Assembly: GCA_913062925.1 (NCBI GenBank)
Contig: CAJXWJ010000027.1
Coordinates: forward strand, 1-42,791
Source: an uncultured Pseudorhodobacter sp.
GTDB lineage: Bacteria; Pseudomonadota; Alphaproteobacteria; Rhodobacterales; Rhodobacteraceae
Reading direction: 5' to 3'
DNA length: 42,791 nt
Below, in pieces: positions 15,863 to 36,255 of this stretch (position 1 is the first letter of the stretch; each line of letters starts with the position of its first letter). Under the pieces are notes generated by a model, which saw only the letters and a program-made list of their open reading frames with translations, had not been told where the DNA came from and ran no database searches. The position numbers and the translations under genes were made by a program.

Positions 15863-16435
15863 TTAACGGATTTTCTCGGTGATTATGGTATATCCTGCGG
15901 TAGGGCCAAGCCACTGTCTCGAATTTACCACTTTGCCGCTGCGACCAAAGCTGAATTGATTGCGAATCACGCGTTGCGGGCTGGTGCAGGTCTCGTCAAC
16001 GGTCAGGGCCGGTGCTGGCGCTGCCGCAGGTTGTGCCGTGCAGGCAAAGGTCTCGGTTTGCAGGGTGTCGGTGCCATCCAGCACCGCATAGCTGCGGCTG
16101 TGATCTGTCATGCTGCGCAGGGTCGCGGCGCTTGGGGCGTGGGCGGACATCAGATCGGGGCCAAAACCACGGGTCCCAAGGATCATCCCCTCGCGCAGAA
16201 ATACTTGTGGGCCATCTGCGACAGCCCAAATCTCGACATCCTGCTGGCGCTCGACTTTTGCAATCGTCAGGATAATGTTGCGATTTTCCAAGGTCATCGC
16301 CAGTTGTGGCGCATTGGAAGGGGCTGCCAGTTGCAGCTGGCTGGGCGCCATGCCGCTTAGGTTTGCGGTGACAGCGCTACAGCCAGTCTGCATCAGCAGG
16401 GCCGCCAAAAGCGGGATAAAACGGGTTACGGTCAT
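15863..16435 (-). CDS. yjbF: YjbF/GfcB-like lipoprotein, exopolysaccharide operon
   Basis: 190 residues from the ATG at 16435, which overlaps the yjbH-like stop (ATGA); the frame opens six codons earlier. The N-terminus ends in MQTGCSA with Cys19 as lipidation site; the -3 residue Gln is unusual for a lipobox. The body matches the YjbF/GfcB type: WAVADGPQVFLREGMILGTRGFGPDL and a late SQWLGPTAGY-like ending (NSRQWLGPTAGYTI). In E. coli these lipoproteins serve an exopolysaccharide or group 4 capsule export system with YjbH and YjbG. Four Cys-containing late residues are not obviously paired. Confidence 0.82.
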   Translation of the reverse strand: MTVTRFIPLLAALLMQTGCSAVTANLSGMAPSQLQLAAPSNAPQLAMTLENRNIILTIAKVERQQDVEIWAVADGPQVFLREGMILGTRGFGPDLMSAHAPSAATLRSMTDHSRSYAVLDGTDTLQTETFACTAQPAAAPAPALTVDETCTSPQRVIRNQFSFGRSGKVVNSRQWLGPTAGYTIITEKIR

Positions 16436-18531: not shown

Positions 18532-18761
18532 AACGCGCCTTACGATGAACCCACTCACTCACATGTGAATAAAGTCTAAACGCTCCGCGCTGCTCTGGCT
18601 ACCTATGCTTTCAAAAACCTGACCACTGTGGCGCAAAGGTTAACCCCCTAGCCGCAGCGCACGCCGATCTTAGCCTGCGTTAACGCCTTCTTTGTAGCCT
18701 TTCGGACTTGACCGCCCGCCTGTGGTGGGGGTGCGCACAAGCAAAAGGGGCATGACACGCG
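18532..18761. promoter_or_regulatory. Divergent control region, yjb operon / beta-helix protein
   Basis: 230 bp between divergent starts. It contains the palindrome TCACATGTGA (18559-18568) close to the yjb side, and two TTAAC copies in opposite settings (AGGTTAACC near 18637 and CGTTAACG near 18678). The arrangement suggests shared regulation of polysaccharide export and the facing gene. No clear sigma-70 promoter could be fixed by eye. Confidence 0.35.
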
Positions 18762-21612: not shown

Positions 21613-23262
21613 ATGATGACCCCAAGTCCCAGACAACCCGCCAGCGAATTCACCCCCAAGCTGATCACCACCTTTCGAGAGGGTTACGGGCTGGGGCAGC
21701 TGCGCGCCGATGTGGTGGCGGGGCTGACGGTTGCGATTGTGGCGCTGCCTTTGTCGATGGCGATTGCGATTGCCAGCGGGGTCGGGCCCGAGCGCGGCTT
21801 GTTCACCGCGATTGTGGGCGGCTTTATCGTGTCTTTGCTGGGCGGATCGCGGTTTCAGATCGGCGGGCCTGCGGGGGCGTTTATCGTGCTGGTGGCGGCC
21901 TGTGTGACGCAGACGGGGGCGGCGGGGCTGACGCTTGCGGTGCTGTTGTCGGGCGCGATGTTGTCAGTCTTGGCGCTGCTGCGGTTGGGCAGCTATGTGC
22001 GGTTTATTCCCTATCCGGTGACGCTTGGCTTTACTGCGGGCATTGCGGTGATCATCTTTGCCAGCCAGATCAAAGATCTGTTTGGGCTTTCGCTGCTGGG
22101 CGAGCCTGCGGCGATCTTGCCGAAACTTGCAGCGCTGTGGGAGGCGCGCGCCAGTTTGAACGCCAGTGCGGCGGCGGTGGCAATCGCCACGATTGCGCTG
22201 ATTGTCGGCATCAAGCGGATTTCGCCCGGCCTGCCCAATATGCTGATTGCGGTGGCGGTGGCGGGGCTGGCGAGTTTTGCGTTGCAGCTGCCGGTCGAGA
22301 CGATCTATTCGCGCTTTGGCGATTTGCCGCGCAGCCCGCCTGCGCCCAGTCTGCCGCCGCTGTCGATGGATCTGGTGATGGTGGCGCTGCCTTGGGCTGT
22401 CAGCTTTACCCTGCTGGGTGCGATTGAATCGCTGCTGTCGGCTGTGGTGGCCGATGGTATGTCGGGGCGCAGGCACCGGCCGAATGCCGAGTTGCTGGCG
22501 CAGGGCGTGGCCAATATCGCCTCGGCGCTGTTTGGCGGCATTTGTGTGACGGGCACGATTGCGCGCACCGCAACCAATGTGCGGGCGGGGTCGAAAGGGC
22601 CGGTCTCGGGCATGATCCACGCGGTGTTTGTGCTGCTGTTCATGCTTATTGCAGCGCCTTTGGCAGGCTATATCCCCTTGGCGGCCTTGGCGGGGCTGTT
22701 GGCGGTGGTGGCTTGGAACATGGCCGAGAAGGCCGAGTTCTGGCATTGTTTGCGCGCCAGTCGCGCCGATGCGGTGGTACTTTTGGTGACCTTTGGTCTG
22801 GTGGTGTTCCGCGATCTGTCCGAAGGCATTGTCGCAGGCTTTGCGCTGGGCGGATTGGTGTTCATTCACCGCATGTCAGAGGCGGCTTCGGTCGAGGCGC
22901 CGGTGGTGACCGAGCCTTTGTCGCAGTTCCCTGATTTGGCCGTTCACCGCCTGCACGGCCCCTATTTCTTTGGTGCGGCGGCACGGCTTGGCGCGGCTTT
23001 GGATCAACTGGCCGAGGCTCCGCGCGGGCTGGCGGTGGATTTCACCGATGTGCCGTTTATCGACAGCACCGGTGCGCATTCCTTTGCGCTTTTGGCGCAG
23101 AAAATGGCACGCAAGCACGAAATCTTGTATCTGATCGGCGCGCGCCCCGAGGTGGCAAAGGCGCTGAAACAGGCGGGGCTTGCCGCCCCCGAAGCCTGCT
23201 TTGTGGACTCTTTGGCAGAGCTGAATTCAGCTGATTCGCAACCGCGAATCACAAAGGCTTGA
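21613..23262 (+). CDS. SulP-family anion transporter with STAS domain
   Basis: 549 residues. About 10-12 membrane segments fill residues 30-420 (LRADVVAGLTVAIVALPLSMAIAIASGV opens the Sulfate_transp domain; GGPAGAFIVLVAA is a conserved pore segment). A C-terminal STAS domain follows at about 440-540, with DFTDVPFIDSTGAHSFALL, the nucleotide-binding or phosphorylation-like DST loop. SulP proteins move sulfate, bicarbonate, nitrate or dicarboxylates; the substrate is not readable here. AGGA lies before a double ATG (21613 or 21616). It is divergent from the HugZ-like gene, with 62 bp between. The family includes the BicA bicarbonate carriers as well as sulfate permeases. Confidence 0.92.
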   Translation: MMTPSPRQPASEFTPKLITTFREGYGLGQLRADVVAGLTVAIVALPLSMAIAIASGVGPERGLFTAIVGGFIVSLLGGSRFQIGGPAGAFIVLVAACVTQTGAAGLTLAVLLSGAMLSVLALLRLGSYVRFIPYPVTLGFTAGIAVIIFASQIKDLFGLSLLGEPAAILPKLAALWEARASLNASAAAVAIATIALIVGIKRISPGLPNMLIAVAVAGLASFALQLPVETIYSRFGDLPRSPPAPSLPPLSMDLVMVALPWAVSFTLLGAIESLLSAVVADGMSGRRHRPNAELLAQGVANIASALFGGICVTGTIARTATNVRAGSKGPVSGMIHAVFVLLFMLIAAPLAGYIPLAALAGLLAVVAWNMAEKAEFWHCLRASRADAVVLLVTFGLVVFRDLSEGIVAGFALGGLVFIHRMSEAASVEAPVVTEPLSQFPDLAVHRLHGPYFFGAAARLGAALDQLAEAPRGLAVDFTDVPFIDSTGAHSFALLAQKMARKHEILYLIGARPEVAKALKQAGLAAPEACFVDSLAELNSADSQPRITKA

Positions 23263-23576
23263 TCAGCGCATTGTGCGCGCCGGTTTGAGTCGCGCGCACA
23301 GGCCAAAGCCCGCTTGGGGCATAGACTTTGCCACTTTATGCGGCGACATGGTGCGGCTTTCAGCTTTGCAGGGCATAAATTCATTACCACTTTTCATAAA
23401 TTTTACAAAGTTCACCATCAGCTTTGTTAATTTATTGACAAAATAATCACGCCTGCAAAAAGAGTTATCAAAATTTTTACAATCGCGCTATCATGGTCCA
23501 AAGAAACGGGGGAGCCCTGCCACGCTGGCAGGCCGTTTGGTAAGCGCATTTGCGCGACTGGGAAAAGGAAAGTTTC
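23263..23576 (+). promoter_or_regulatory. AT-rich control region and leader of acs
   Basis: 314 bp without a gene; from 23375 on it is much richer in AT than its surroundings. It contains a long near-perfect inverted repeat (arms 23397-23410 and 23422-23434, TAAATT..ACAAAG against CTTTGT..AATTTA), a TTGACA at 23435, and a plausible sigma-70 promoter TTATCA (23465-23470), 18 bp, TATCAT (23489-23494). A leader hairpin CCTGCCA / TGGCAGG lies at 23516-23532. The best reading is a regulated promoter for the acetate genes. Confidence 0.55.
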
Positions 23577-25541
23577 ATGTCGGATCACGCTCAGGCAGAG
23601 CTGAAATACACAGCCTCAGATGATTTTATCGCCAAGGCGCATGTGAATGCAGCGCAATATGCGGCGATGTATCAGGCCTCTGTCGACGACCCGACGGCGT
23701 TCTGGGCCGAGCAAGGCCAGCGGATTGACTGGATCCAGGATTACACCAAGGTCAAAAATACCAGCTTTAAGCGCGGCGAAGTCTCGATCAAATGGTATGA
23801 AGACGGCACGCTGAACGTCTCGGCCAATTGCATTGACCGTCATATGCTGACCCGCGCCAACCAGACCGCGATCATCTGGGAGCCAGACAGCCCATCGACG
23901 CCTGCGCTGCACATTACTTATGCGCAGCTGTTGGAAAACACCTCGCGGATGGCGAATGTGCTGAAAGAGCAGGGCGTTGGTCGTGGTGATCGGGTGGTGA
24001 TCTATCTGCCGATGATCCCAGAGGCTGCCTATGCGATGCTGGCTTGTGCGCGCATCGGGGCTATTCATTCGATCGTTTTTGCGGGCTTTTCGCCGGATGC
24101 TTTGGCCAACCGGATCAATGATTCCGAAGCCAAAGTGGTGATCACCTCTGATTTCGCGCCGCGTGGTGGCAAGAAAACCGCGCTGAAAAGCAATACGGAT
24201 GCGGCGCTGTTGCATTGTGACGATCATGTCAAATGTCTGGTGGTCAAGCACACCGGCGATCAAACCTCTTGGGTCGAGGGTCGTGACATTGACGTAAAGG
24301 CCGCAATGGCTGCGGCAAAGCCCTATTGCCCCTATGTCGAGATGGGTGCCGAAGATCCGCTGTTTATCCTTTACACCTCGGGTTCGACCGGCAAGCCGAA
24401 GGGGGTTGTGCATACCTCGGGCGGCTATCTGGTTTATGCGGCGATGACGCAGCAGATGACCTTTGATTACCATGACGGCGATGTGTTCTGGTGCACTGCC
24501 GATGTGGGTTGGGTGACAGGGCACAGCTATATCATCTATGGTCCGCTGGCCAATGGGGCGACGACGGTGATGTTTGAAGGTGTGCCAACCTATCCAGACG
24601 CGGGCCGCTTCTGGGAGGTTTGCGCCAAGCATAAGGTGTCGCAGTTCTACACCGCCCCCACGGCTATTCGCAGCCTGATGGGCATGGGCGCTGAATGGCC
24701 CGCCAAGCATGACCTGTCCAGCCTCAAGCTGCTGGGGTCGGTGGGCGAGCCGATCAACCCCGAGGCTTGGAACTGGTACAACACCCATGTCGGCAAGGGC
24801 AAATGCCCGATTGTCGATACCTTCTGGCAGACCGAAACCGGCGGTCATTTGATCACGCCGCTGCCCGGCGCTGTGCCGCAAAAGCCGGGGTCGGCGACGC
24901 TGCCGTTCTTTGGCGTGCAGCCGGTGATCCTTGATCCGGCCAATGCCGTTGTGCAATCGGAAACCGTGGCTGATGGCGTGCTATGCATCGCCGACAGCTG
25001 GCCGGGGCAGATGCGCACGCTTTGGGGCGATCATGCGCGGTTTGAAGAAGCCTATTTCGCGCAATATCCCGGCTATTACTTTACCGGTGACGGCTGCCGT
25101 CGCGATAAGGATGGCTATTACTGGATCACCGGCCGCGTTGACGATGTGATCAACGTCTCGGGTCACCGCATGGGCACGGCCGAGGTCGAAAGCGCGCTGG
25201 TCGCCCACCCCAAGGTCGCGGAATCTGCTGTGGTTGGCTATCCGCATGACATCAAGGGGCAGGGGATTTACGCCTATGTCACGCTGATGGGCGGCGAAGA
25301 GCCCTCGGACGCGCTGCGCAAAGAGCTGGAAGCTTGGGTGCGCACCGAAATCGGCCCGATTGCCAAGCCAGATCTTATTCAATGGGCCCCCGGCCTGCCG
25401 AAAACCCGCTCGGGCAAGATCATGCGCCGGATTTTGCGCAAGATTGCCGAGAATGACTTTGGCGCGCTGGGCGATACCTCGACGCTGGCCGATCCTTCGG
25501 TGGTCGATGATCTGATCGCCAACCGCATGAACAAGGCCTGA
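23577..25541 (+). CDS. acs: Acetyl-CoA synthetase (AMP-forming)
   Basis: 654 residues from the ATG at 23577 with AAGGAAA upstream (the frame opens nine codons earlier). It converts acetate, ATP and CoA to acetyl-CoA, AMP and PPi through acetyl-AMP. Visible are [11 protein letters not shown] (P-loop-like), WWTxADxGW-type [26 protein letters not shown], the hinge [29 protein letters not shown], and the regulatory Lys614 in [11 protein letters not shown], whose acetylation inactivates family members. Codons and length are normal. It is followed in the same direction by adk and the acetate symporter, so the whole acetate entry path lies together. Confidence 0.97.
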
Positions 25542-25544
25542 GAC

Positions 25545-26204
25545 ATGGCTGCTGTTCTGATCCTTTTGGGCCCACCGGGGGCTGGCAAAGGCACCCAAGC
25601 GCGGATGCTGGAAGAAGACTTTGGTCTGATCCAGCTGTCGACCGGGGATATGCTGCGCGCGGCGGTGGCCTCTGGCTCGGCTGCGGGGACGCAGGCGCGC
25701 GCGGTGATGGCTGCGGGCGGTCTGGTTTCGGACGAGATCGTTTTGGCGATTTTGGCCGAGCGGATGGCACAGCCCGATGTGGCCAATGGCATCATTCTGG
25801 ACGGCTTTCCCCGCACCAGCGCGCAGGCCGCAGCGCTTGATGTGCTGCTGGCGGATGCGGGCCTGCGGGTGACGGCTGCGATCAGCCTAGAGGTCGATGA
25901 CGCCGCTATGGTCGCGCGCGTGTCGGGCCGCTATACCTGCGCCTGTGGCGAAGGCTACCATGACGAATTCAAGCGCCCCACAGCTGCGGGCGTTTGCGAT
26001 AAATGCGGCGGCACCGACTTTAAACGTCGGGCCGACGATAACGCCGAAACTGTGGGCGAGAGGCTGAAAGCCTATCATGCGCAGACGGCACCGTTGATCG
26101 CCTATTACGAAGGCAAAGGGGTTCTAGAGCGGATCGATGCGATGGGAGAGATCGCAGCTATCCGCAAGGGCCTTGGCGCAATCGTGGCAGGGGTTTCGGC
26201 GTAA
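25545..26204 (+). CDS. adk: Adenylate kinase, long form with Cys4 lid
   Basis: 219 residues. P-loop GPPGAGKGT (residues 9-17), AMP-binding LSTGDMLRAA and LDGFPRT, then a long LID with Cys132, Cys134, Cys151 and Cys154 (CACGEGY ... CDKCGG), a likely zinc site; the first pair has one residue between, where two is usual. It catalyses ATP + AMP to 2 ADP. It starts 3 bp after the acs stop, so AMP made by Acs can be recycled by a co-expressed enzyme. The main adk of Rhodobacteraceae usually lies in the ribosomal protein operon; this may be a second, acetate-linked copy, which the window alone cannot prove. Confidence 0.95.
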   Translation: MAAVLILLGPPGAGKGTQARMLEEDFGLIQLSTGDMLRAAVASGSAAGTQARAVMAAGGLVSDEIVLAILAERMAQPDVANGIILDGFPRTSAQAAALDVLLADAGLRVTAAISLEVDDAAMVARVSGRYTCACGEGYHDEFKRPTAAGVCDKCGGTDFKRRADDNAETVGERLKAYHAQTAPLIAYYEGKGVLERIDAMGEIAAIRKGLGAIVAGVSA

Positions 26205-26268
26205 CGGGAGGCCTGTCATCCAAGCAATCGGGTGGCGGGAAGGGATATAACACAGGGAGTAACATGCT

Positions 26269-26526
26269 ATGGCGGACAATACCTCGTCCAACGCCTATTG
26301 GGCAGCGAACAAGCAGATCATCAGCGTTTGTCTGGTTATCTGGTTCGTTTGTTCTTTCGGCTTTGGCATTCTGCTGCGCCCGATGCTGTCGGGTATCGCT
26401 GTCGGGGGCACTGACCTCGGCTTCTGGTTTGCTCAACAAGGCTCGATTCTGGTCTTTCTTGGTCTGATTTTCTTCTACGCGTGGAAAATGGGCAAAGTAG
26501 ACAAAGAATTCGGCGTTGAAGAATAA
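26269..26526 (+). CDS. Small subunit of acetate/solute:sodium symporter (DUF4212)
   Basis: 85 residues with two membrane helices (about 17-38, ISVCLVIWFVCSFGFGILL, and 52-70, FWFAQQGSILVFLGLIFFYAW) and a cytoplasmic charged end KMGKVDKEFGVEE. This is the DUF4212 / TIGR03647 small partner that precedes VC_2705-type sodium:solute symporters. GGGAG lies 9 bases upstream. The large subunit starts 15 bp after its stop. Codon usage here and in the next gene favours GTT, GCT and TTG more than the neighbours, as seen in highly expressed membrane transporters. Confidence 0.92.
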   Translation: MADNTSSNAYWAANKQIISVCLVIWFVCSFGFGILLRPMLSGIAVGGTDLGFWFAQQGSILVFLGLIFFYAWKMGKVDKEFGVEE

Positions 26527-26541
26527 GGGAGCGCAGAAATA

Positions 26542-28314
26542 ATGGATCAGTTTACCCTCAATCTGCTTGTTGTCGGTGCGACTTTCGCACTGTACTTCGG
26601 CATCGCGATCTGGGCCCGTGCGGGCACCACATCTGAATTCTATACCGCTGGCGGCGGGGTTCACCCCGTTCTGAACGGTATGGCAACCGGCGCTGACTGG
26701 ATGTCGGCAGCTTCCTTCATCTCGATGGCGGGTATCATTGCTGCTGGCGGCTATGACAGCTCGGCCTATCTGATGGGTTGGACCGGCGGCTACGTTCTGC
26801 TTGCGATGTTGCTTGCGCCTTACCTGCGTAAGTTCGGCAAGTTCACCGTGCCAGAATTCATCGGCGACCGTTTCTACAGCCAGTCGGCGCGTCTTGTTGC
26901 CGTGATCTGTCTGATTGTGGCCTCGGTGACCTATGTTATCGGTCAGATGACCGGCGTTGGCGTTGCTTTCTCGCGCTTCTTGGAAGTGAAAGCATCGACC
27001 GGCCTTTATATCGGCGCGGCCGTTGTGTTCTTCTATGCTGTTCTTGGCGGCATGAAGGGCATCACCTACACGCAGGTGGCACAATACGTCGTTCTGATCT
27101 TCGCATATACCATTCCTGCTGTGTTTATCTCGTTGCAGCTGACGGGCAATGCGCTGCCACCTTTGGGCCTGTTCTCGACCCACATTGAATCCGGCATGCC
27201 TTTGTTGGCAAAGCTGGACCAAGTTGTGCAAGAGCTGGGCTTTGCCAAATACACCGGCCACAGCGACACCACTTTGAACATGTTCTTGTTCACCATGTCG
27301 CTGATGATCGGTACTGCTGGCCTGCCACACGTGATCGTGCGCTTCTTCACCGTGCCAAAAGTGGCTGATGCGCGTGCATCTGCTGGCTGGGCGCTGGTGT
27401 TCATCGCATTGCTTTACACCGTGGCTCCGGCTGTGGGCGCAATGGCGCGTTTGAACCTGATCAGCAACATCTATCCAAACGGCACGCAGTCGGACCCGAT
27501 TGCTTATGAAGCCCGCCCAGATTGGATGAGGAACTGGGAGACCACGGGTCTGCTGAAGTTCGAAGACAAGAACGGCGATGGCTTGATCGAGTTCTATAAC
27601 GACAAGTCGAAGAACGAAGACTTCAACGCTGCCGCAGCTGCAAAAGGCTGGGCTGGCAACGAGCTGACCGTGAACAACGACATCATGGTTCTTGCGAACC
27701 CTGAGATCGCACAGCTTCCAGGTTGGGTTGTGGCTTTGGTTGCGGCTGGTGGCCTTGCGGCTGCTTTGTCGACCGCTGCTGGCCTGTTGTTGGCAATTTC
27801 TTCGGCAATCTCGCATGACTTGATCAAGGGTTCGCTGAACCCGAACATCTCGGAAAAAGGCGAGCTGATGGCGGCGCGTGTGTCGATGGGCGTGGCGATT
27901 GCGGTTGCAACCTATCTGGGTCTGAACCCTCCTGGGTTTGCGGCGCAGACGGTGGCTTTGGCCTTCGGTCTGGCAGCGGCTTCGATCTTCCCTGCACTGA
28001 TGATGGGCATCTTCTCGAAGCGCATCAACAACGTGGGCGCGGTTGCGGGCATGCTTTCGGGTCTGTTGGTCACCGTTGTGTATATCTTCTTGCACAAGGG
28101 CTGGTTCTTTATCCCAGATACCAACAGCTATACCGACGCGGCTCCTTTGCTGCTGTCGATCAAGTCGACCTCCTTCGGGGCTGTCGGCGCGCTGGTCAAC
28201 TTTGCTGTGGCTTTCGCTGTGTCGCGGGCAACCGCAGCACCGCCACAAGCGATCCAAGATCTGGTCGAAGGCATCCGCATTCCACGCGGTGCTGGCAAAG
28301 CTCAGTCGCACTAA
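26542..28314 (+). CDS. actP: Sodium:solute symporter, VC_2705 subfamily (acetate permease, ActP-like)
   Basis: 590 residues, SLC5/SSS family, about 13 helices. Typical family segments are GATFALYFGIAIWARAGTTSEFYTAGGGVHPVLNGMATGADWMSAASF at the start (split here in meaning: helix 1, then substrate/Na site), and AAGGLAAALSTAAGLLLAISSAISHDL near 410-440. The family imports acetate and similar short acids with Na+. An extra-membrane insertion at about 325-385 carries DKNGDGLIE (residues 342-350), an EF-hand-like calcium loop. Context, acs-adk-DUF4212 upstream, supports acetate as substrate. A UUCG hairpin follows the stop. ActP is used as name by role; E. coli ActP belongs to a sister subgroup. 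Confidence 0.92.
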   Translation: MDQFTLNLLVVGATFALYFGIAIWARAGTTSEFYTAGGGVHPVLNGMATGADWMSAASFISMAGIIAAGGYDSSAYLMGWTGGYVLLAMLLAPYLRKFGKFTVPEFIGDRFYSQSARLVAVICLIVASVTYVIGQMTGVGVAFSRFLEVKASTGLYIGAAVVFFYAVLGGMKGITYTQVAQYVVLIFAYTIPAVFISLQLTGNALPPLGLFSTHIESGMPLLAKLDQVVQELGFAKYTGHSDTTLNMFLFTMSLMIGTAGLPHVIVRFFTVPKVADARASAGWALVFIALLYTVAPAVGAMARLNLISNIYPNGTQSDPIAYEARPDWMRNWETTGLLKFEDKNGDGLIEFYNDKSKNEDFNAAAAAKGWAGNELTVNNDIMVLANPEIAQLPGWVVALVAAGGLAAALSTAAGLLLAISSAISHDLIKGSLNPNISEKGELMAARVSMGVAIAVATYLGLNPPGFAAQTVALAFGLAAASIFPALMMGIFSKRINNVGAVAGMLSGLLVTVVYIFLHKGWFFIPDTNSYTDAAPLLLSIKSTSFGAVGALVNFAVAFAVSRATAAPPQAIQDLVEGIRIPRGAGKAQSH

Positions 28315-28322
28315 AATCAATG

Positions 28323-28347
28323 GCGCGTCCCTTCGGGGGCGCGCTTT
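28323..28347 (+). terminator. UUCG-capped hairpin after the symporter gene
   Basis: GCGCGTCCC, loop TTCG, GGGGCGCGC form a 9-bp stem (one G-T pair) with a stabilising UUCG tetraloop, followed by only TTT. It would give partial termination between the abundant symporter message and the DUF294 gene, whose ribosome binding site begins a few bases later; it could equally protect the 3' end of the upstream mRNA. Confidence 0.65.
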
Positions 28348-28365
28348 CCTGTTGGGGAGGCCGCT

Positions 28366-30186
28366 TTGGAAACCAGTTCAGCGATCATCGGTTTTCTGCA
28401 AAGCGTGCATCCTTATGACAGCCTGCCGCAGGACGAGTTGGTGCGTGTCGCCCATTCCTTCCGCCGCAGTGAAGTGCAGGCAGGCGCCGAGATTTACCAT
28501 TTTGGCGCGCCGCTGGACGGGATTTATCTGATCAAAACCGGCTCGGTCGAGGTGCAGGATGCCTCGGGCGGCTTGGTGTCTTTGCTGGGGCCGCGCAACT
28601 CTTTTGGCGAGCGCGGGCTGATGCGCGACGGTCTGGCCGCGACCACGGCGCTGGCGCTTGAAGACTGCGTGCTGCTGCATCTGCCGGCGGCTGAATTTCA
28701 CGCCCTGATGCAAAGCGCGCCGCCGTTTCAGCGGTTTTTCACCCGTGGCCGCGCCGGGGATCGGCGCAACACCGATCTTGCGATGCAGACGGTGGGCGAT
28801 CTGATGACCGGCGATCCGCAAAGCTGCGGGCCCGAAGATACGGTGCAATCGGCCGCCGCCCGGATGCGCGATGGCAAGATTTCCTGTCTGGGCGTGGTCG
28901 AGGCTGGGGCCTTTATCGGGCTGGTCACCACCCGCGATCTGACTGGCAAGGTTTTGGCCGCCGGTCTGCCCGCCAGCACGCCGGTGCGCGCGGTGATGAG
29001 CGGCACGCCGATCAGCCTGCCGCCCGAGGCTTTGGGCGCGGATGTGCTGAACCTGATGCTGGAGCGTCGCATCGGCCATCTGCCGGTGGTCGAGGCGGGA
29101 CGGTTGATCGGCATGATCACCCAAACCGATATCACGCGGTTTCAGGCGACCTCTTCGGCGCAATTGGTGCGGGATCTGGCCGGAGCGCAAAGCGTGGCGC
29201 AGATGGCGGCGGTCACTGCGCGGATCCCGCAGCTTTTGGTGCAATTGGTCGGCGGCAATACCGCGCATCAGGTCACCACACGGCTGATCACTGATATTGC
29301 CGATACGGTGACGCGGCGGCTTTTGGCCTTGGCCGAGGCGAACCTTGGCCCCGCGCCCGTGCCCTATCTTTGGCTTGCCTGTGGCAGTCAGGGCCGCCAA
29401 GAGCAGACCGGCGTGTCAGATCAGGACAACTGCCTGTTCATCGACGATGCCGCCACCGAGGACGATATGGCCTATTTCGCGGCGCTGGCGATTTATGTCT
29501 GCGACGGTCTGCATGCCTGCGGCTATGTCTATTGCCCCGGCGAGATGATGGCGACCAATCCGAAATGGTGCGCGCGCATCAGCACTTGGCGCGGCTATTT
29601 CCGCCGCTGGATCGCCACACCTGACCCAATGGCGCAGATGCTGGCCTCGGTGATGTTTGATCTGCGCCCGATTGGCGGGACGGTGTCTTTGTTCAGCGAT
29701 TTGCAGGCGGAAACCTTGGCCGAGGCGGCCGAGAACTCGATCTTTGTGGCCCATATGATCGCCAATTCGCTGACCCATACCCCGCCCTTGGGCCTGCTGC
29801 GCGGCTTTGCGACCTTTCGGTCGGGCGAGCATAAAAACCAGATTGATCTGAAGCATAACGGCGTGGTGCCGCTGACCGATTTGGGGCGGGTCTATGCCTT
29901 GATCGGGCAATCGGCGGTGGCCAATACCCGCGCGCGGCTCTTGGCGGCGGGCGATGCGGGGGTGATTTCAACCTCGGGCGGGGCCGATCTGCTGGATGCT
30001 TATGATCTGATCGCACAGACCCGACTTGACCATCAGGCGCGGCTGATCCGCGCGGGCAAGATGGCGGATAACTTTATGGCGCCCTCTGATCTTTCGGATT
30101 TCGAACGCGCGCATCTGCGCGATGCTTTTGTGGTCGTGCGGACCATGCAATCAGCTGTGGGCCAAGCCCGCGGTGCAAGAACCTAA
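28366..30186 (+). CDS. cNMP-binding / tandem CBS / DUF294 nucleotidyltransferase-like regulator
   Basis: 606 residues, beginning with TTG (GGGGAGG lies 5 bases upstream). Domain order: cyclic-nucleotide-binding-like domain (about 15-125, GTEIYHFGAPLDGIYLIKTGSVEV type), CBS pair (about 145-260, VGDLMTGDPQSCGPEDTVQSAAARM and VRAVMSGTPISLPPEALGADVLNLM), DUF294 nucleotidyltransferase-like domain (about 290-435) with ACGSQGRQEQTGVSDQDNCLF, which keeps the G-S...R-x-E and D-x-D residues of GlnD-type enzymes, and the DUF294_C helical domain. CBS domains bind adenine nucleotides, so AMP/ATP sensing is plausible next to acs and adk. Genes of this type recur beside VC_2705 symporters. Substrate to be modified is unknown. 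Confidence 0.9.
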   Translation: METSSAIIGFLQSVHPYDSLPQDELVRVAHSFRRSEVQAGAEIYHFGAPLDGIYLIKTGSVEVQDASGGLVSLLGPRNSFGERGLMRDGLAATTALALEDCVLLHLPAAEFHALMQSAPPFQRFFTRGRAGDRRNTDLAMQTVGDLMTGDPQSCGPEDTVQSAAARMRDGKISCLGVVEAGAFIGLVTTRDLTGKVLAAGLPASTPVRAVMSGTPISLPPEALGADVLNLMLERRIGHLPVVEAGRLIGMITQTDITRFQATSSAQLVRDLAGAQSVAQMAAVTARIPQLLVQLVGGNTAHQVTTRLITDIADTVTRRLLALAEANLGPAPVPYLWLACGSQGRQEQTGVSDQDNCLFIDDAATEDDMAYFAALAIYVCDGLHACGYVYCPGEMMATNPKWCARISTWRGYFRRWIATPDPMAQMLASVMFDLRPIGGTVSLFSDLQAETLAEAAENSIFVAHMIANSLTHTPPLGLLRGFATFRSGEHKNQIDLKHNGVVPLTDLGRVYALIGQSAVANTRARLLAAGDAGVISTSGGADLLDAYDLIAQTRLDHQARLIRAGKMADNFMAPSDLSDFERAHLRDAFVVVRTMQSAVGQARGART

Positions 30187-30198
30187 AGGAAACGGTTT

Positions 30199-30720
30199 AT
30201 GTTTTGGGACTTTATCGGGATGATCGCCGCGGGCGCTGGGCTTGCGGGCCTTGTGCTTATGGTGCGAAAAGTCAGCCGCGGCATCTTGCCCAGCTGGACC
30301 ATTCCGGCGGCGATTGGGCTGGGGATGCTAAGCTTTACCGTTTGGAATGAATACACCTGGTATCCGCGCGCCAGCGGTGCCCTGCCGCAGGGCGTGATCA
30401 TTCTATCGGCCCCCGAGACCAAGCAGGCATGGCGGCCCTGGACCTATCTGTTCCCGATCCACCAACGCTTTGCCGCCTATGATGGTGTCAGCGCCAAGAC
30501 CTCGCTGGAAAATCCGGCGATCCGTCAGGGCGAGGTGGTGCTGGTGCAGCGCTGGCAGCCCACCCGCCGCGTGCCGATTGCGGTGGATTGCGCCAAGGGC
30601 CTGCGCGCCGATCTGATCGAAGGTGCTGTGATTGTCGCCGATGGCACCCTGACTGGGGCCGAGTGGTATCCGGCCGCCGCAGACGATGCGCTGCAGCTTG
30701 CTGCCTGTCAGGCCAAGTAG
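30199..30720 (+). CDS. Unknown membrane protein with periplasmic or cytosolic tail
   Basis: 173 residues, no family recognised. Two hydrophobic helices lie at about 3-22 (WDFIGMIAAGAGLAGLVLMV) and 32-50 (WTIPAAIGLGMLSFTVW). Conserved-looking aromatic stretch NEYTWYPRASG follows, then a soluble domain of about 110 residues with two Cys (VDCAKG, LAACQAK) rich in short beta strands (GEVVLVQRWQPTRRVPIAVD). It starts 12 bp after the DUF294 gene and ends 1 bp before the receiver gene, so it belongs to the same translation-coupled unit. A role as membrane partner in the signalling unit is inference. Confidence 0.8.
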   Translation: MFWDFIGMIAAGAGLAGLVLMVRKVSRGILPSWTIPAAIGLGMLSFTVWNEYTWYPRASGALPQGVIILSAPETKQAWRPWTYLFPIHQRFAAYDGVSAKTSLENPAIRQGEVVLVQRWQPTRRVPIAVDCAKGLRADLIEGAVIVADGTLTGAEWYPAAADDALQLAACQAK

Positions 30721-30721
30721 C

Positions 30722-31111
30722 ATGGCAAGCCCCGCGCAAAAGCCAAAGGTTCTGGTGATCGAGGACGAAGACAATATCGCCCTTGCGCTGGATTTTTTGA
30801 TGACGCGCGAGGGCTATGCGCCCGACCGGATCGCCAATGGCGGCGAGGCGATGGCGCGCATCCGCGAAACCCACCCCGATCTGGTTTTGCTGGATGTGAT
30901 GCTGCCCGAGATTTCGGGCTATGAAATCTGCCAAAGCATGCGGCTGGACCCAAATCTGTCGGATGTAAAGATCCTGATGATGACGGCGCGGGGCTCGGCG
31001 ATTGAACGGCGCAAGGGTATTGCCTTGGGGGCGGATGGCTTTATCGCCAAACCCTTCGAGCTGAAAGAGCTGCGCGACGAGGTGCGCCGCCTGCTGGGCC
31101 AAGGCGGCTAG
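30722..31111 (+). CDS. Stand-alone response-regulator receiver (CheY-like)
   Basis: 129 residues, a single receiver domain with no output domain. All active residues are present: acidic pair Glu14/Asp15, phospho-acceptor Asp58 (VLLDVML), Thr88 (MMTARG) and Lys110 (AKPF). The ATG at 30722 follows the preceding TAG by one base; the next gene's ATG directly follows this gene's TAG. It probably passes a phosphoryl signal by protein contact. The adjacent sensor-like protein has no phospho-acceptor His, so the kinase acting on it, if any, must be elsewhere. Confidence 0.92.
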   Translation: MASPAQKPKVLVIEDEDNIALALDFLMTREGYAPDRIANGGEAMARIRETHPDLVLLDVMLPEISGYEICQSMRLDPNLSDVKILMMTARGSAIERRKGIALGADGFIAKPFELKELRDEVRRLLGQGG

Positions 31112-33184
31112 ATGCGGGTCAGGCTACAGCTTTTTCTGATCTTTGTCGGGCTGGCGCTGGCGGCGCTGGCAGCGCTTTTGGCGGGGTTGTGGCTGGGCTA
31201 TCATCATCTGGCGCAGGCGGGGGCGACGCTGGCCGCTGTGGTGCGCAGCGGTGTGATGGCGGGTTTTGTGCAGGCGGGCGTGGTTTCAGGCTTTGCGCTC
31301 TTGGGGCTGATGGCAGGGGTTTGGCTGCTGCTGGACATGCGCTTTGCCAAGCCGATTGACCAATTGGCGGGCGATCTGCGCGCCCGCGTGCATGGCGATG
31401 TGACCGCCGCCTTGCCTGCGCGCCAAGCCCTGCATCTGGGCGATCTTGGCCCTGCGGCGCGGGCGGCAAGTGACAGCCTTGCGCAGACCAGATCGGCCTT
31501 GGCCGAGGCGGTGGCGCGTGAAACCGCGCGGCTGTCGGGGGAAAACGCGCGGCTTGGGGCGCTGTTGGCCGATGTGCCGGCGGGGGTTTTGCTGTGTTCG
31601 GCCGATCATCGCATCGTGTTTTACAACGGCTTGGGTGTTGGGCTGTTGCGGGCAATCGGGCCGGCGGGTTTGGGGCGCAGCCTGTTTGACTATCTGCACG
31701 CGGGGCCGTTGCAGCATGCCTATGGCAGGCTTTGCGCCACGGGCGACGCCGATGCGGCCTCGGATCTTTTGTGCAGCACGCGGGCGGGGGCACGGGTGCT
31801 TGCGGCACGAATGCGGCTGTTGCAGCCCGAGGCGGGGGCGGCTGCGGGCTATGTTTTGACGCTGCAAGATGTCACCGCCGATCTGAACGCCGCTGCCCGC
31901 CGCGAGTCTTTGCTGGTCGAGATGTTTGACCGCTTTGGCCGCCCTGCCGCCAATCTTGCCACCCTGATCGAAGCGCTGCCCAACCCCGCTTTGCCGCCTG
32001 ATTTGCGCGAGGCGCTGCAGGGCGAGGTGGCGCGGCTGGGCCAAGCGGTGACCGAGCTTTCGCAGCGTCACGACCAAAGTCGCGGCGAAGATTGGCCGCT
32101 GATGCTGACGCGGGCCTCGGATCTTTTGGACGGGGTTGCGGCGCAGGTGGCGGGCAGTGGCGTTTTGCTCAGCCAGAAAGCCGCGCCTTTGCTTTTGCAT
32201 TGCAATGGCTTTGAGGTGATTGGTTTGCTCACACTTTTGGCGCGCAATCTGCCGGCGCGCCGGTTTCACCTTAGCCTCGAGGAAGACGGCTCTGACGCGC
32301 TGCTGCGGCTGTCTTGGCAGGGCGAGGTGCTGGCGCTGGCTGATCTGGAGGCTTGGCTGGCCCAGCCGATCGACCCTGCCATGCCCGAAATCAGCGGCCG
32401 CGCGGTCTTGGCCGCCCATGCCACCGACATCTGGCCCGAAACCACGGCAGAGGGTGCCGCGCTTTGTTTGCCCTTGCGGGTGGCGCGGCGCGAAACCGCG
32501 CGGCCTGATCCGGTGCTGCGCGATGTGGTTTATGACTTTGATCTGTTGTCGGGCGCGCGCAATGCCTCTGTCGCCGAGGCGCGGCTGGATGCGCTGACCT
32601 ATGTGGTGTTTGACAGCGAAACCACCGGACTTTTGCCCGATCAGGGCGACGAGGTGGTGCAGATTGCCGCCGTGCGCATCGTCAACGGGCGCAGGCTGAA
32701 GACCGAAGTGTTTGACATGCTGGTCAATCCGCAGCGCAAAATTCCCGCCGCCTCGACCAAGGTGCATGGCATCACCGACGCGATGGTTGCCGATGCGCCG
32801 CCGATGGCCGAGGTGGCGCGCCGCTTGCATGACTTTGCCGCGGGCGCGGTGCTGATCGCGCATAACGCGCCCTTTGACATGCAGTTTCTGCGCCGGATCG
32901 AGGGGCAGATTGGCCTGCGCTTTGACAATCCGATCTTGGACACTGTGCTGTTGTCGGCGGTGATCTGGGGCCAGCACGAAACCCATACGCTGGATGCGCT
33001 GACCCATCGGCTTGGCATCACCATTCCCGAGGAGGCCCGCCACACAGCGCTGGGCGATGCAATCGCCACGGCGGATGCGTTTTTAAAGCTGTTGCCGATG
33101 CTGCAAGGCCGCGGCCTGACCCGCTTTGATGAGGTGCTGACCCAAGTGCGCCAGCACGGGCGGCTGTTGAAAGATTTGAACTGA
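31112..33184 (+). CDS. Membrane PAS / kinase-like protein fused to DEDDh 3'-5' exonuclease
   Basis: 690 residues. Two membrane helices (about 5-28 and 52-75) are followed by a HAMP-like stretch, a PAS-like domain (about 148-258, GVLLCSADHRIVFYNGLG), a helical pair in the place of a histidine kinase DHp (about 264-320, MFDRFGRPAANLATLIEAL) with no His in the H-box, and a degenerate ATPase-like part (about 325-465, with GRAVLAAHATDIWPETTAEG in the G-box place). From about 495 runs an intact DnaQ-like exonuclease: Asp501 and Glu503 (FDSETTG), Asp589 (HNAPFD), His644 and Asp649 (HTALGD). It should digest 3' ends of nucleic acids at the membrane under control of the sensor part. ATG abuts the receiver stop. 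Confidence 0.88.
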   Translation: MRVRLQLFLIFVGLALAALAALLAGLWLGYHHLAQAGATLAAVVRSGVMAGFVQAGVVSGFALLGLMAGVWLLLDMRFAKPIDQLAGDLRARVHGDVTAALPARQALHLGDLGPAARAASDSLAQTRSALAEAVARETARLSGENARLGALLADVPAGVLLCSADHRIVFYNGLGVGLLRAIGPAGLGRSLFDYLHAGPLQHAYGRLCATGDADAASDLLCSTRAGARVLAARMRLLQPEAGAAAGYVLTLQDVTADLNAAARRESLLVEMFDRFGRPAANLATLIEALPNPALPPDLREALQGEVARLGQAVTELSQRHDQSRGEDWPLMLTRASDLLDGVAAQVAGSGVLLSQKAAPLLLHCNGFEVIGLLTLLARNLPARRFHLSLEEDGSDALLRLSWQGEVLALADLEAWLAQPIDPAMPEISGRAVLAAHATDIWPETTAEGAALCLPLRVARRETARPDPVLRDVVYDFDLLSGARNASVAEARLDALTYVVFDSETTGLLPDQGDEVVQIAAVRIVNGRRLKTEVFDMLVNPQRKIPAASTKVHGITDAMVADAPPMAEVARRLHDFAAGAVLIAHNAPFDMQFLRRIEGQIGLRFDNPILDTVLLSAVIWGQHETHTLDALTHRLGITIPEEARHTALGDAIATADAFLKLLPMLQGRGLTRFDEVLTQVRQHGRLLKDLN

Positions 33185-33211
33185 AGACCCCTGCGATAAC
33201 AAAGGTATGCT

Positions 33212-33895
33212 ATGCCCGATCTTGTGATCCCCGCCCCGCGCGCGCCGCACATCCCCACCCGTGACGGCAGGGCGTTTCCGCTGCGCAGGGTCTATTGCAT
33301 TGGCCGCAATTTTGCCGCCCATGCGGTGGAAATGGGCCATGACCCCGACCGCGAGCCGCCGTTCTTTTTCCAAAAGAACCCCGATAATTTGGATGCCTCG
33401 GGTCAGTTTCCCTATCCCGCGCAAAGCCGCGATGTGCATCACGAGGTCGAACTGCTGATCGCGCTGCAATCTGGTGGGCGCAACATCGACCCAGCAAAGG
33501 CGCTGGATCACGTTTGGGGCTATGGCATCGCCTTGGACATGACGCGGCGCGATTTGCAGGGCGAGGCGAAAAAGCTGGGCAGGCCTTGGGAAATTGGCAA
33601 GGCCTTTGAACGCTCAGGCCCGGTTGGCCCGCTGTGGCCTGTGGCCGAGGTTGGGCACCTGACTGCGGGGCAGATTGCGCTGCGGGTCAATGGCACGCTG
33701 CGCCAAGACGGCGATTTGAACCAGATGATCTGGAAGGTGCCGGAAATCATCACCTATCTTTCGCACTATTTCGAATTGCAGGCGGGCGATGTGATTATGG
33801 CGGGCACCCCTGCGGGGGTGGCGGCCGTGGCCATTGGCGATGTGATGGAGGCCAGCATTGCAGGCCTTGGCACGCTGGTGGTGACGGTGGTTTAG
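33212..33895 (+). CDS. Fumarylacetoacetate hydrolase family protein
   Basis: 227 residues, a single-domain FAH fold. RRVYCIGRNFAAHAVEMG opens the domain; metal ligands are in HHEVELLIAL (Glu-x-Glu) and the Asp of ALDMTRRDLQ; the substrate-side Lys is in AKKLGRPWEIGKAFE. GDVIMAGTPAGV ends the core. Family members hydrolyse or decarboxylate C-C bonds of acylpyruvates (fumarylpyruvate, acetylpyruvate) or oxaloacetate. Length and the RPWEIGKAFE motif suit fumarylpyruvate or acylpyruvate hydrolases. AAAGG precedes the ATG. It follows the exonuclease gene by 27 bp and may be cotranscribed, but its metabolic link to acetate is unclear. Confidence 0.9.
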   Translation: MPDLVIPAPRAPHIPTRDGRAFPLRRVYCIGRNFAAHAVEMGHDPDREPPFFFQKNPDNLDASGQFPYPAQSRDVHHEVELLIALQSGGRNIDPAKALDHVWGYGIALDMTRRDLQGEAKKLGRPWEIGKAFERSGPVGPLWPVAEVGHLTAGQIALRVNGTLRQDGDLNQMIWKVPEIITYLSHYFELQAGDVIMAGTPAGVAAVAIGDVMEASIAGLGTLVVTVV

Positions 33896-34032
33896 GCGCA
33901 ATCTGCGCGCAAGACCTTTCGTCTGCGCCGCTTCTTGCGTAAACTTCACCGCAAAGGGTTGCCGCTGCTGGCAGCTGACCGATGGCCCGGCTTGGGGCCG
34001 ATTTCTCTAACCAAACAAGAACAGGTTCCGAT

Positions 34033-36255
34033 ATGACCAACCGCCCAACGCCCGACATCATTTACACCACGGTCGACGAAGCGCCGCAGCTTGCGGCGGC
34101 CTCGCTGTTGCCGATCATTCAGGCCTTTGCGGCGGCGGCGGGCGTCAGTGTCGGCACCCGCGATATCTCGCTTGCAGGCCGGATCATTGCGGCCTTCCCC
34201 GAGGGGCTTTCGCCCGAACAGCGCCAGCCCGATGATCTGGCCGATCTGGGCGCTTTGGTGACGAAGCCCAGTGCCAATGTGATCAAGCTGCCAAACGTTT
34301 CGGCCTCGGTGCCGCAGCTGGTGGCGGCGGTCAAGGAATTGCAATCGCAGGGCTATGCGCTGCCCGATTACCCCGAAGACCCGCAAAGCGAGGCCGAAAA
34401 AGAGGCGCGCCGCCGCTATGATGCGCTGAAGGGTTCGGCGGTCAATCCGGTGCTGCGCGAGGGCAACTCTGACCGCCGCGCCGCGATTGCGGTGAAAAAC
34501 TATGCGATGGCGCATCCGCATTCGATGGGCACTTGGGCGGCAGACAGCAAGACCCATGTGTCGACCATGGCGGCGGATGATTTCTTTGCCAATGAAACCT
34601 CGGCCACGCTGACGGCAGCGCAGGCGGGGCCGGTGCGCATTGAGCTTTTGGGCGAAGATGGCGCGGTTTCTGTGCTGAAAGATGGGGTGAAATTCCCTGA
34701 CGGTGCGGTCGTGGATGCAACCTTTATGTCGGCGCGCGCGCTGCGGGCGTTTTTGGATCAGCAGATTGCGGCCACCCAAGCCCAAGGCGTGCTGTTCTCG
34801 TTGCACCTGAAGGCCACGATGATGAAGGTCTCGGACCCGATCTTGTTTGGCCATGCGGTGCGCGCTTATCTGGCACCAGTGTTTGACAGCTATGGCGCGG
34901 TGTTTGATGCGGCTGGCATCAGCGCAAACGCAGGGCTTGGCGCGATGCTGGAGCGGATTGCCGAGCTGCCGCAGGCAAGCGAGATTTTGGCGGCGATTGA
35001 CGCCACGCTTGCCAGCCGCCCGCCGCTTTATATGGTGAATTCCGATAAGGGCATCACCAACCTGCATGTGCCGTCTGATGTGATCATCGACGCCTCGATG
35101 CCCGCACTGATCCGTGCAGGCGGCAAGGGCTGGGGCCCGGATGGCCGCGCGGCCGATACCAATTGCGTCATTCCTGACAGCTCTTACGCCGTGGTTTATG
35201 ACGAGGCGATCCGCTATTTCAAGGAAACCGGCGCGCTGGATCCGGCCACCGCTGGCACGGTGCAAAACGTCGGGCTGATGGCGCAAAAGGCCGAAGAATA
35301 CGGCAGCCACCCCACCACCTTTGAAGTGCCGCATGCCGGCACCGTGCGGATGGTGCTGGCCAATGGCGAGGTGCTGCACAGCCATAAGGTCGAGGCAGGC
35401 GACATCTGGCGCTCGGCCTCGGCGCGCAAAGCGCCGATCGAAGATTGGGTGCATCTGGCGATTGCCCGGCAAAAGGCGGAAAACTGTCAGGCGATTTTCT
35501 GGCTGGATGCGGCGCGCGCGCATGATGCGGAGCTGATCGCCTATGTCAAACCGCTGCTGGCGGCGGCGGGTGTGGCCGATAAGTTCCAGATCCTTGCCCC
35601 GCGCGAGGCGACACGGCTGTCGCTGGAAACCATTCGGCGGGGGGAAACCTCGATTGCTGTCACTGGCAACGTGCTGCGCGATTATCTGACCGATCTGTTC
35701 CCGATCCTAGAACTGGGCACCTCGGCCAAGATGCTGTCGATTGTCAAACTGATGCAGGGGGGTGGCATGTTTGAAACCGGAGCTGGCGGCTCTGCGCCCA
35801 AGCATGTGCAGCAATTGGTGCAGGAAAACCATCTGCGCTGGGACAGTCTGGGCGAGTTCTGCGCGCTGGGCGAAAGCCTGAAGTTTCAGGCAGAGCTTTC
35901 GGGCAATGCAAAGGCGCTGATCTTGGGCAAAGCCGTGGATGCGGCCACCCAAGCGATCTTGGACAATGACCATTCGCCCAAAGCCAAGGTCGGCCAGACC
36001 GACAATCGCACCAGCCATTTCTACTTTGCCTGGGCTTGGGCGGCGGCGATGGCTGCGCAGACCGAAGACGCGGGTCTTGCCGCGCATTTCGCGCCTATTG
36101 CTGCGGCCTTGGCGCAAAACGAGGCGAAGATCTTGGCCGAGTTGACGGCAAACGAAGGCAAGCCTGTGGATCTGGGCGGCTATTATCACGCCGACCCCGC
36201 CAAGACCGCCGCCGTGATGCGGCCTTCGCAAACCTTTGTCGGCATCATCGGATAA
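34033..36255 (+). CDS. icd: NADP-dependent isocitrate dehydrogenase, monomeric type
   Basis: 740 residues from the ATG at 34033 ([22 protein letters not shown]); this matches the roughly 740-residue monomeric IDH class, quite unlike the 400-residue dimeric enzyme. It oxidises isocitrate to 2-oxoglutarate with NADP and a divalent metal. Recognisable parts are [11 protein letters not shown] and [13 protein letters not shown] (isocitrate binding), [39 protein letters not shown], and [30 protein letters not shown]. The region is well conserved throughout. A strong terminator follows 27 bp after the stop. As the enzyme competing with the glyoxylate shunt for isocitrate, its closeness to acetate genes is notable but may be chance. 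Confidence 0.96.

Follow-up and report, generated by a model that had tools for sequence, protein, structure and literature searches.

The window considered here is a stretch of 42,791 nucleotides from an uncultured Pseudorhodobacter sp. (contig CAJXWJ010000027.1 of assembly GCA_913062925.1), and our subject is a set of four consecutive genes on its forward strand which encode a DUF294 protein, a small membrane protein, a lone receiver and a multidomain protein that we call X. The DUF294 protein (28366..30186) has Pfam matches to a cyclic-nucleotide (cNMP) domain, two CBS domains, DUF294 and DUF294_C; it is followed by a membrane protein of 173 residues with two helices and a beta-rich domain (30199..30720), by a single-domain receiver (30722..31111; PF00072, Response_reg) and by X (31112..33184), in which a membrane PAS part is joined through a pseudo-histidine kinase to a DEDDh exonuclease. 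On the same strand, upstream of this set, lie acs for acetyl-CoA synthetase (23577..25541; Pfam ACAS_N/AMP-binding, with the start taken as the ATG at 23577), adk for adenylate kinase (25545..26204; Pfam ADK), the small subunit of a DUF4212 symporter (26269..26526; PF13937, TIGR03647) and a sodium/solute symporter (26542..28314) whose TIGR03648 score of 826.8 bits, relative to a cut-off of 320.75, places it in the VC_2705 family. An earlier note on this DNA had described the four genes as a signalling unit attached to acetate uptake, spaced 12, 1 and 0 bp apart directly after acs, adk and the symporter. The open reading frame coordinates confirm both the spacing and the order, but "directly" is too strong, as the gap between the symporter and DUF294 measures 51 bp and contains a GC-rich hairpin of 10 pairs (28322..28345, forward strand), just past the symporter stop and at a conserved position.

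It is clear that the unit is real and widespread. In our survey of the family, which covers 149 genomes, the search with X matched 81, and neighbourhoods were fetched for 40 of these (the best-scoring ones, G098 excepted). DUF294, the membrane protein and X keep their order and strand in 40/40 neighbourhoods, and the symporter is present in 39/40, the exception being L040, where the contig starts at DUF294. These three genes are thus not scattered in the family, and the proposed tie of a conserved signalling unit to acs and VC_2705-type symporters holds there. The claim has to be narrowed in two respects, since the receiver is missing at 13 of the 40 family loci, leaving three constant members of the four, and since outside Rhodobacterales a close VC_2705-type symporter is found at only 25 of 60 X loci (the symporter state of 13 of them, L074-L088, being set by hand).

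The agreement extends to the genome level. With window-type X defined by E <= 1e-14 (a threshold chosen after the list of matches had been inspected) and DUF294 by E <= 1e-60 (more distant DUF294 genes being uncounted), the two occur in the identical 71 of the 149 genomes (Fisher p = 2.5e-44, phylogeny uncorrected) and are adjacent in 70 of the 71, with G118 carrying them on separate contigs. The other 10 of the 81 X-matching genomes have matches of E 1e-9 or weaker and stand outside the 71; one of these 10, G023, has a divergent X (L090) with a receiver and a kinase and no window-type DUF294. The symporter, counted at E <= 1e-100, occurs in 74/149 genomes, and is found without X in G059 (42% identity), G066, G087 (where the contig ends just past the symporter) and G139; G147 has a symporter fragment only, at a contig end. 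The membrane protein is present in 70/149 genomes, without X only in G139, where it stays beside the symporter with both DUF294 and X lost, and X is found without the membrane protein only in G118 and G130. Loci from named records place X in alpha-, beta- and gammaproteobacteria, and single metagenome-assembled genomes under the labels Nitrospirota, Desulfuromonadales, Deltaproteobacteria, Magnetococcales and Caldilineaceae carry it as well. Of the 59 named-record loci with a DUF294 match, 55 have it no more than 3 kb from X, and 19 of the 80 named-record X loci are without one. A further tally of matches (218/398) is given no weight, as many of the matches listed span the HAMP/PAS part only.

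The hairpin behind the symporter is terminator- or processing-like. Its z score over the 60-nt junction is −1.8 in the window (28315-28374), and z is −2 or lower at 32 of the 40 family junctions, where the position is conserved and the sequences differ. Other junctions reach this value in 1/34 (acs-adk), 12/35 (adk-DUF4212), 3/39 (DUF4212-symporter) and 2/41 (DUF294-membrane protein) cases and downstream of X in 4/40. A terminator scan of the whole region stays at background (14 found, 12.7 expected), so the claim of a hairpin rests on the family junction scores; an Rfam scan of 23000-34100 gave no known RNA element at the gathering score. Given its conservation, the four genes may be expressed separately from the transporter.

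Protein X and its coupling to the receiver

The reading of X as a sensor that ends in an exonuclease instead of a kinase is one that we reject, because both the alignment and an AlphaFold model place a degenerate transmitter between the PAS domain and the exonuclease. From the N-terminal side, X comprises a PAS domain (residues 154-256, 31571..31879; identified by PAS_4 and the model, the Pfam match with E 0.00023 falling slightly short of the cut-off), a pseudo-DHp domain (residues 255-327, 31874..32092) that forms a helical hairpin in the model and has Asp273 at the acceptor position, a pseudo-CA or ATPase-like domain with an invariant W402 (residues 332-460, 32105..32491), and a DEDDh 3'-5' exonuclease (residues 496-666, 32597..33109) with an RNase_T match and the D-E-D-H-D residues. 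The extra segment between PAS and exonuclease is present in the long forms of X across the family alignment. A second alignment has 66 rows, the window protein plus 65 of the 72 long X proteins from named records (L097, L100, L101, L103, L106, L107 and L136 being left out), and is also the source of the DHp profile; five short X were aligned separately, the frame-broken L052 was excluded, and so were L110, L125 and L141, which are broken or truncated.

The kinase core has lost the residues on which a histidine kinase depends by definition, namely the acceptor His and the HATPase_c N and G boxes. At the H-box acceptor position (residue 273) we find Glu in 38/66, Asp in 17/66, another residue in 11/66 and His in none, with the Arg of the HELRxPL motif retained in 60/66; at L166 X reads T-E-G-T-R where the neighbouring true kinase reads T-H-E-L-R. 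Pfam recognises HisKA in 6/66 and HATPase_c in 0/66 (E <= 0.01), as compared with RNase_T in 66/66. As we read the alignment, two proteins only, those of the window and L129, have the second N-box Asn, a likely coincidence, and W402 stands at the expected position of the G1-box Asp in all 66. This invariance means that the pseudo-CA domain is under selection. X of L161 matches the PnpS and WalK kinase models at about 1e-14 over HAMP-PAS-DHp, below the curated cut-offs. The exonuclease residues D501, E503, D589, H644 and D649 are kept in 66/66, as in the DEDDh family, which agrees with the earlier suggestion of a nuclease as possible output.

The AlphaFold model of X, with a mean predicted local distance difference test (pLDDT) score of 89.9, shows two long N-terminal helices, the PAS domain, a DHp-like hairpin, a CA-like domain and the exonuclease, and a Foldseek search with it returned PAS histidine kinases, DivL (4q20, E 6e-7) and DnaQ-type exonucleases. 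By alignment and predicted fold, X is a kinase-dead transmitter of the histidine-kinase type fused to an apparently intact exonuclease, and the nuclease is its sole obvious enzymatic output. PADLOC profiles (DEDDh, PDC-S48, SduA, PD-T4-6 and PycTIR) matched the exonuclease, receiver or cNMP regions only, at the profile level; a role in anti-phage defence was considered and, on these matches of single domains, not adopted.

The receivers adjacent to X, defined as same-strand open reading frames ending between 400 bp before and 620 bp after the start of the X frame, have the phospho-acceptor D58 in 98/100 (exceptions L135 and L148), K110 in 100/100 and T/S88 in 97/100, and carry no output domain. 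With the Asp, Lys and Thr/Ser kept, these receivers look phosphorylatable, and X itself seems an unlikely source of the phosphoryl group. The presence of a receiver follows the form of X: among the 40 family neighbourhoods it accompanies 27 of 29 long X and none of 11 short X, and the two long X that make up the remainder of the 13 receiver-free loci have no recognised DHp.

A larger table of 131 loci combines the family neighbourhoods with other alphaproteobacterial and named loci, and leaves out L078 and L082, which have a short X and no receiver nearby, and L091/L092, which have no X. DHp and receiver occur together in 100 of these loci, neither in 22, DHp only in 8 and a receiver only in none, with one locus unscored. 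L136 has no DHp call. L118 and L154 were scored receiver-present by hand; L087 and L088 count as receiver-absent, although a receiver stands next to their kinase gene, 1.6-1.7 kb downstream of X and separated from it by a DUF294 gene on the opposite strand. In L058, L059, L089 and L093 the pseudo-CA domain is kept with neither a recognised DHp nor a receiver, so the receiver tracks DHp and not CA. A Pagel-type test favours dependent over independent evolution of the two (likelihood ratio 39.9, p = 4.6e-8). Each model was fitted from a single start, and the tree, a quick one without L103 and L106, leaves 58 of its 128 inner branches open.

Partner proteins and neighbouring genes

The DUF294 protein had been described as joining CBS and nucleotidyltransferase-like parts, which is correct as far as it goes, with the cNMP domain overlooked. 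Its motif of G340, S341, R344 and D352-Q-D354-N, together with a third Asp at D432, is invariant in 100/100 aligned sequences, and PF03445, PF10335 and the GS and DxD motifs of DUF294 nucleotidyltransferases are all present, so far as sequence can tell an intact active-site motif of the polymerase-beta type. In the cited part of one survey, DUF294_C is grouped with GlnD/GlnE-like enzymes (PMC3710099). The Rhodobacter capsulatus genome with the X locus L098 holds three DUF294 copies (L174, L178 and L182; 64-66% identity), and L178 follows a different SSS symporter (27% identity) with a receiver directly next and no membrane-protein match within its 1.5-kb flanks. The Pseudomonas genome of L166 has its own kinase-receiver-X set and a separate DUF294 gene followed by a stand-alone RNase_T exonuclease of 235 amino acids. 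In L175 and L179, both from this genome, the exonuclease frame overlaps the DUF294 3' end and is 27-28% identical to the X exonuclease.

For the membrane protein, no Pfam or NCBIfam family was matched, and a fold search with its AlphaFold model (pLDDT 95.4) gave no PDB match at E <= 0.001. As C131 and C170 are invariant in a 34-row alignment, we infer a periplasmic disulphide domain.

A candidate for the missing phosphoryl donor is a histidine kinase of about 840-1060 amino acids, found near many receiver-X pairs, whose N-terminus is transporter-like and whose kinase domains are intact. At 32 of the 60 loci outside Rhodobacterales it is encoded no more than 500 bp from X on the same strand (17 upstream, 15 downstream), and at 38 it is found somewhere in the locus; a close kinase and a close VC_2705-type symporter occur together in 11 loci, the kinase only in 21, the symporter only in 14 and neither in 14. 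HisKA and HATPase_c were found in 17/17 kinases tested, and the N-terminal part of the kinase profile (4-627) matches a solved chain named as a histidine kinase (10ed_A, E 5e-109). At L161, acs, kinase, receiver, X, DUF294, DUF4212 and an SSF symporter follow each other in this order. The genome of the window also has such a kinase (G000:C35:25571-28237), which shares 43% identity over 2-906 with the L075 kinase and has matches to HisKA and HATPase_c and none to SSF at E <= 0.001; it is located on another contig, adjoining a second lone receiver that is 44% identical to that of the window. On this contig C35 (L194:4875-8277) the kinase is preceded by the lone receiver and by a regulator which, from its sequence, we take to be XRE-type. 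The idea of a pathway that reads acetate or energy state is sustained insofar as relatives of the unit often stand beside a kinase of the type that regulates acs in Pseudomonas and Vibrio; acetate itself is no more than a candidate signal.

Farther out, an anion transporter of SulP/STAS type (21613-23262) lies upstream of acs; the same holds for 7/40 family neighbourhoods, not all of which reach that far. A YjbH exopolysaccharide protein and a pectate-lyase-like protein are encoded divergently at 16435-18558 and 18762-21047.

A proposed pathway, its rivals and known systems

We propose, with a probability of about 0.5, that the unit is a rewired two-component pathway leading from kinase to receiver to an exonuclease controlled by a pseudo-kinase, to which DUF294 would add a second input or modifier gated by nucleotides. 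A histidine kinase with an SLC5-like N-terminus and a domain order of the CbrA/CrbS type would phosphorylate the lone receiver, and the phosphorylated receiver would dock on the dead DHp of membrane-anchored X, much as DivK does on DivL. Docking, together with a signal at the PAS domain, would switch the attached DEDDh 3'-5' exonuclease, which may trim nucleic acid, DNA or RNA, in the vicinity of the transporter. Gated by cNMP and, through CBS, by adenylates, the DUF294 nucleotidyltransferase might join the same branch, perhaps by nucleotidylating one of its members, and the unit as a whole would tune acetate or short-chain-acid metabolism. The components of this scheme, i.e., the dead kinase core, the intact exonuclease residues, the phosphorylatable receiver, the intact nucleotidyltransferase motif and the gene linkages, are read from the sequences; phosphotransfer, docking, nuclease switching, substrate and signal are deduced from them.

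The acetate or pyruvate link gains support by analogy from Pseudomonas. According to the portions of two reports used here, ErdR/CrbR binds the promoter of PP_0354, a gene for a CBS-domain protein; PP_0353, downstream of it, encodes an RNase_T protein, and growth on pyruvate is impaired by deletion of PP_0353 and not of PP_0354 (PMC8402216, PMC9927547). We ourselves take PP_0354 to be a putative DUF294 protein. A further target of CrbS/R, Pflu5625 of P. fluorescens, has cAMP-binding, CBS and nucleotidyltransferase domains in the account consulted (PMC5715377). A CBS-protein/exonuclease pair under CrbS/R is consistent with a role of the present unit in the same metabolism.

Several observations weigh against the proposed pathway. 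In the same portions of these reports, growth on acetate is unaffected by deletion of PP_0354 or PP_0353 (PMC8402216, PMC9927547), and deletion of Pflu5625 has a negligible effect on it (PMC5715377). The kinase is found in 133/149 family genomes with or without X, which means that it is not specific to X in the family, and none lies in the window; at 10 of the 60 loci outside Rhodobacterales there is neither a close VC_2705-type symporter nor a kinase anywhere in the locus, and SSF is detected in only 5 of 17 kinases at E <= 0.1, which makes SLC5 a weak label by Pfam. At eight loci X has a DHp and no receiver beside it, and a sign test on well-supported branches, with three pairs (mean 2.8 concordant, 0 opposite), gives p = 0.25. 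The short X of 11/40 family loci, finally, have neither kinase core nor receiver and retain the exonuclease.

These short forms speak for X being a sink or scaffold for the receiver, whose dead kinase restrains or localises signalling and whose exonuclease is a constitutive passenger. The coupling of DHp with the receiver would be expected in that case as well, and yet the exonuclease residues are invariant in all 66 long forms, mostly from Pseudomonadota of three classes, so that nuclease and sensor seem co-selected; we regard such a role as possible and on balance unlikely. A different division of labour would have DUF294 add nucleotides to a protein or an RNA end and the exonuclease remove them, with receiver and PAS setting the balance, in a logic like that of GlnD where a DEDDh enzyme stands in for the HD domain. 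The occurrence of DUF294 and window-type X in the same 71 genomes, their proximity at 55 of 59 loci, the active-site motif kept in 100/100, the 235-residue RNase_T protein after DUF294 in the L166 genome and the PP_0354-PP_0353 pair, as far as its published description goes, would all suit this writer and eraser. Gene pairing alone is nonetheless no proof of a common substrate, and 19/80 X loci lack a DUF294 match. To our knowledge, moreover, no DEDDh enzyme acts as a de-nucleotidylase, and we hold both the writer-eraser scheme and its GlnD-like logic to be decidedly unlikely. A combined version, in which the dead kinase directs the nuclease, DUF294 writes and the exonuclease erases on one shared target, and a nucleotide mark left on a protein or an RNA end records the state of carbon uptake, has a slimmer chance still.

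Chance proximity of ordinary genes with no functional link would explain why receiver and symporter are not constant, and the hairpin may split the transcript. We reject it as highly improbable in view of the order kept in 40/40 neighbourhoods and the way in which DUF294 and X come and go together, both being absent from G139. That X is still a kinase, with an acidic residue replacing His, is suggested by the Glu or Asp of 55/66 proteins at the acceptor position, and is scarcely credible for proteins with HATPase_c in 0/66, the second N-box Asn in 2/66 and Trp for the G1-box Asp in 66/66. If the rewired pathway is correct, two-component signalling could reach nucleic-acid turnover directly, by way of a receptor whose kinase is dead, and a widespread unnamed protein family would gain a function. 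It would also offer a possible reason for the repeated occurrence of DUF294 and an exonuclease next to acetate transporters, and would bear on the unexplained pyruvate phenotype of PP_0353.

Among the titles and abstract openings listed by searches of the open-licence literature, a scope that most subscription papers fall outside, no layout of a receiver with a pseudo-kinase-exonuclease was found, in line with the earlier note's view that it is not a described one. A transposon study of C. sphaeroides, searched by term, gave nothing that bears on the unit. What has to be added is that a related set from Pseudomonas is already in print without the receiver or the sensor fusion. This CrbS/CrbR (MxtR/ErdR) system, as there described, shares with our unit a transporter-domain kinase, a CBS-protein gene, a downstream exonuclease gene and the acetate/pyruvate link, and differs in that CrbR is a transcription factor and that PP_0353 is characterised by its RNase_T match alone. 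The stand-alone exonuclease of L179 likewise differs from X: it lacks the membrane, PAS and pseudo-kinase parts, and no lone receiver adjoins it.

In Caulobacter DivL, according to the part of the report cited, the kinase core is reused to sense the phosphorylated receiver DivK, together with PAS domains (PMC4211667). X resembles it, on that partial description, as a putative receiver sensor of the dead-kinase type with a PAS domain, and 4q20 is a match in fold; X differs by its own nuclease and by having mostly Glu or Asp at the acceptor position. The output of DivL is the control of CckA. GlnD and GlnE are alike in belonging to the group of DUF294_C, as far as the cited part goes, and unlike the DUF294 protein in its cNMP and CBS input, and DEDDh exonucleases of the DnaQ/PolC type share with X the fold and catalytic residues, from which X is set apart by its fusion to a membrane sensor. 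The studied kinases of transporter-kinase architecture named in the passage at hand are CbrA, with a transporter-like domain, STAC, PAS and kinase and no receiver domain, and MxtR/CrbS, with a C-terminal receiver (PMC7918813). The kinases near X appear to share the overall domain order of CbrA, and CbrA differs in that it signals to a transcription factor, CbrB.

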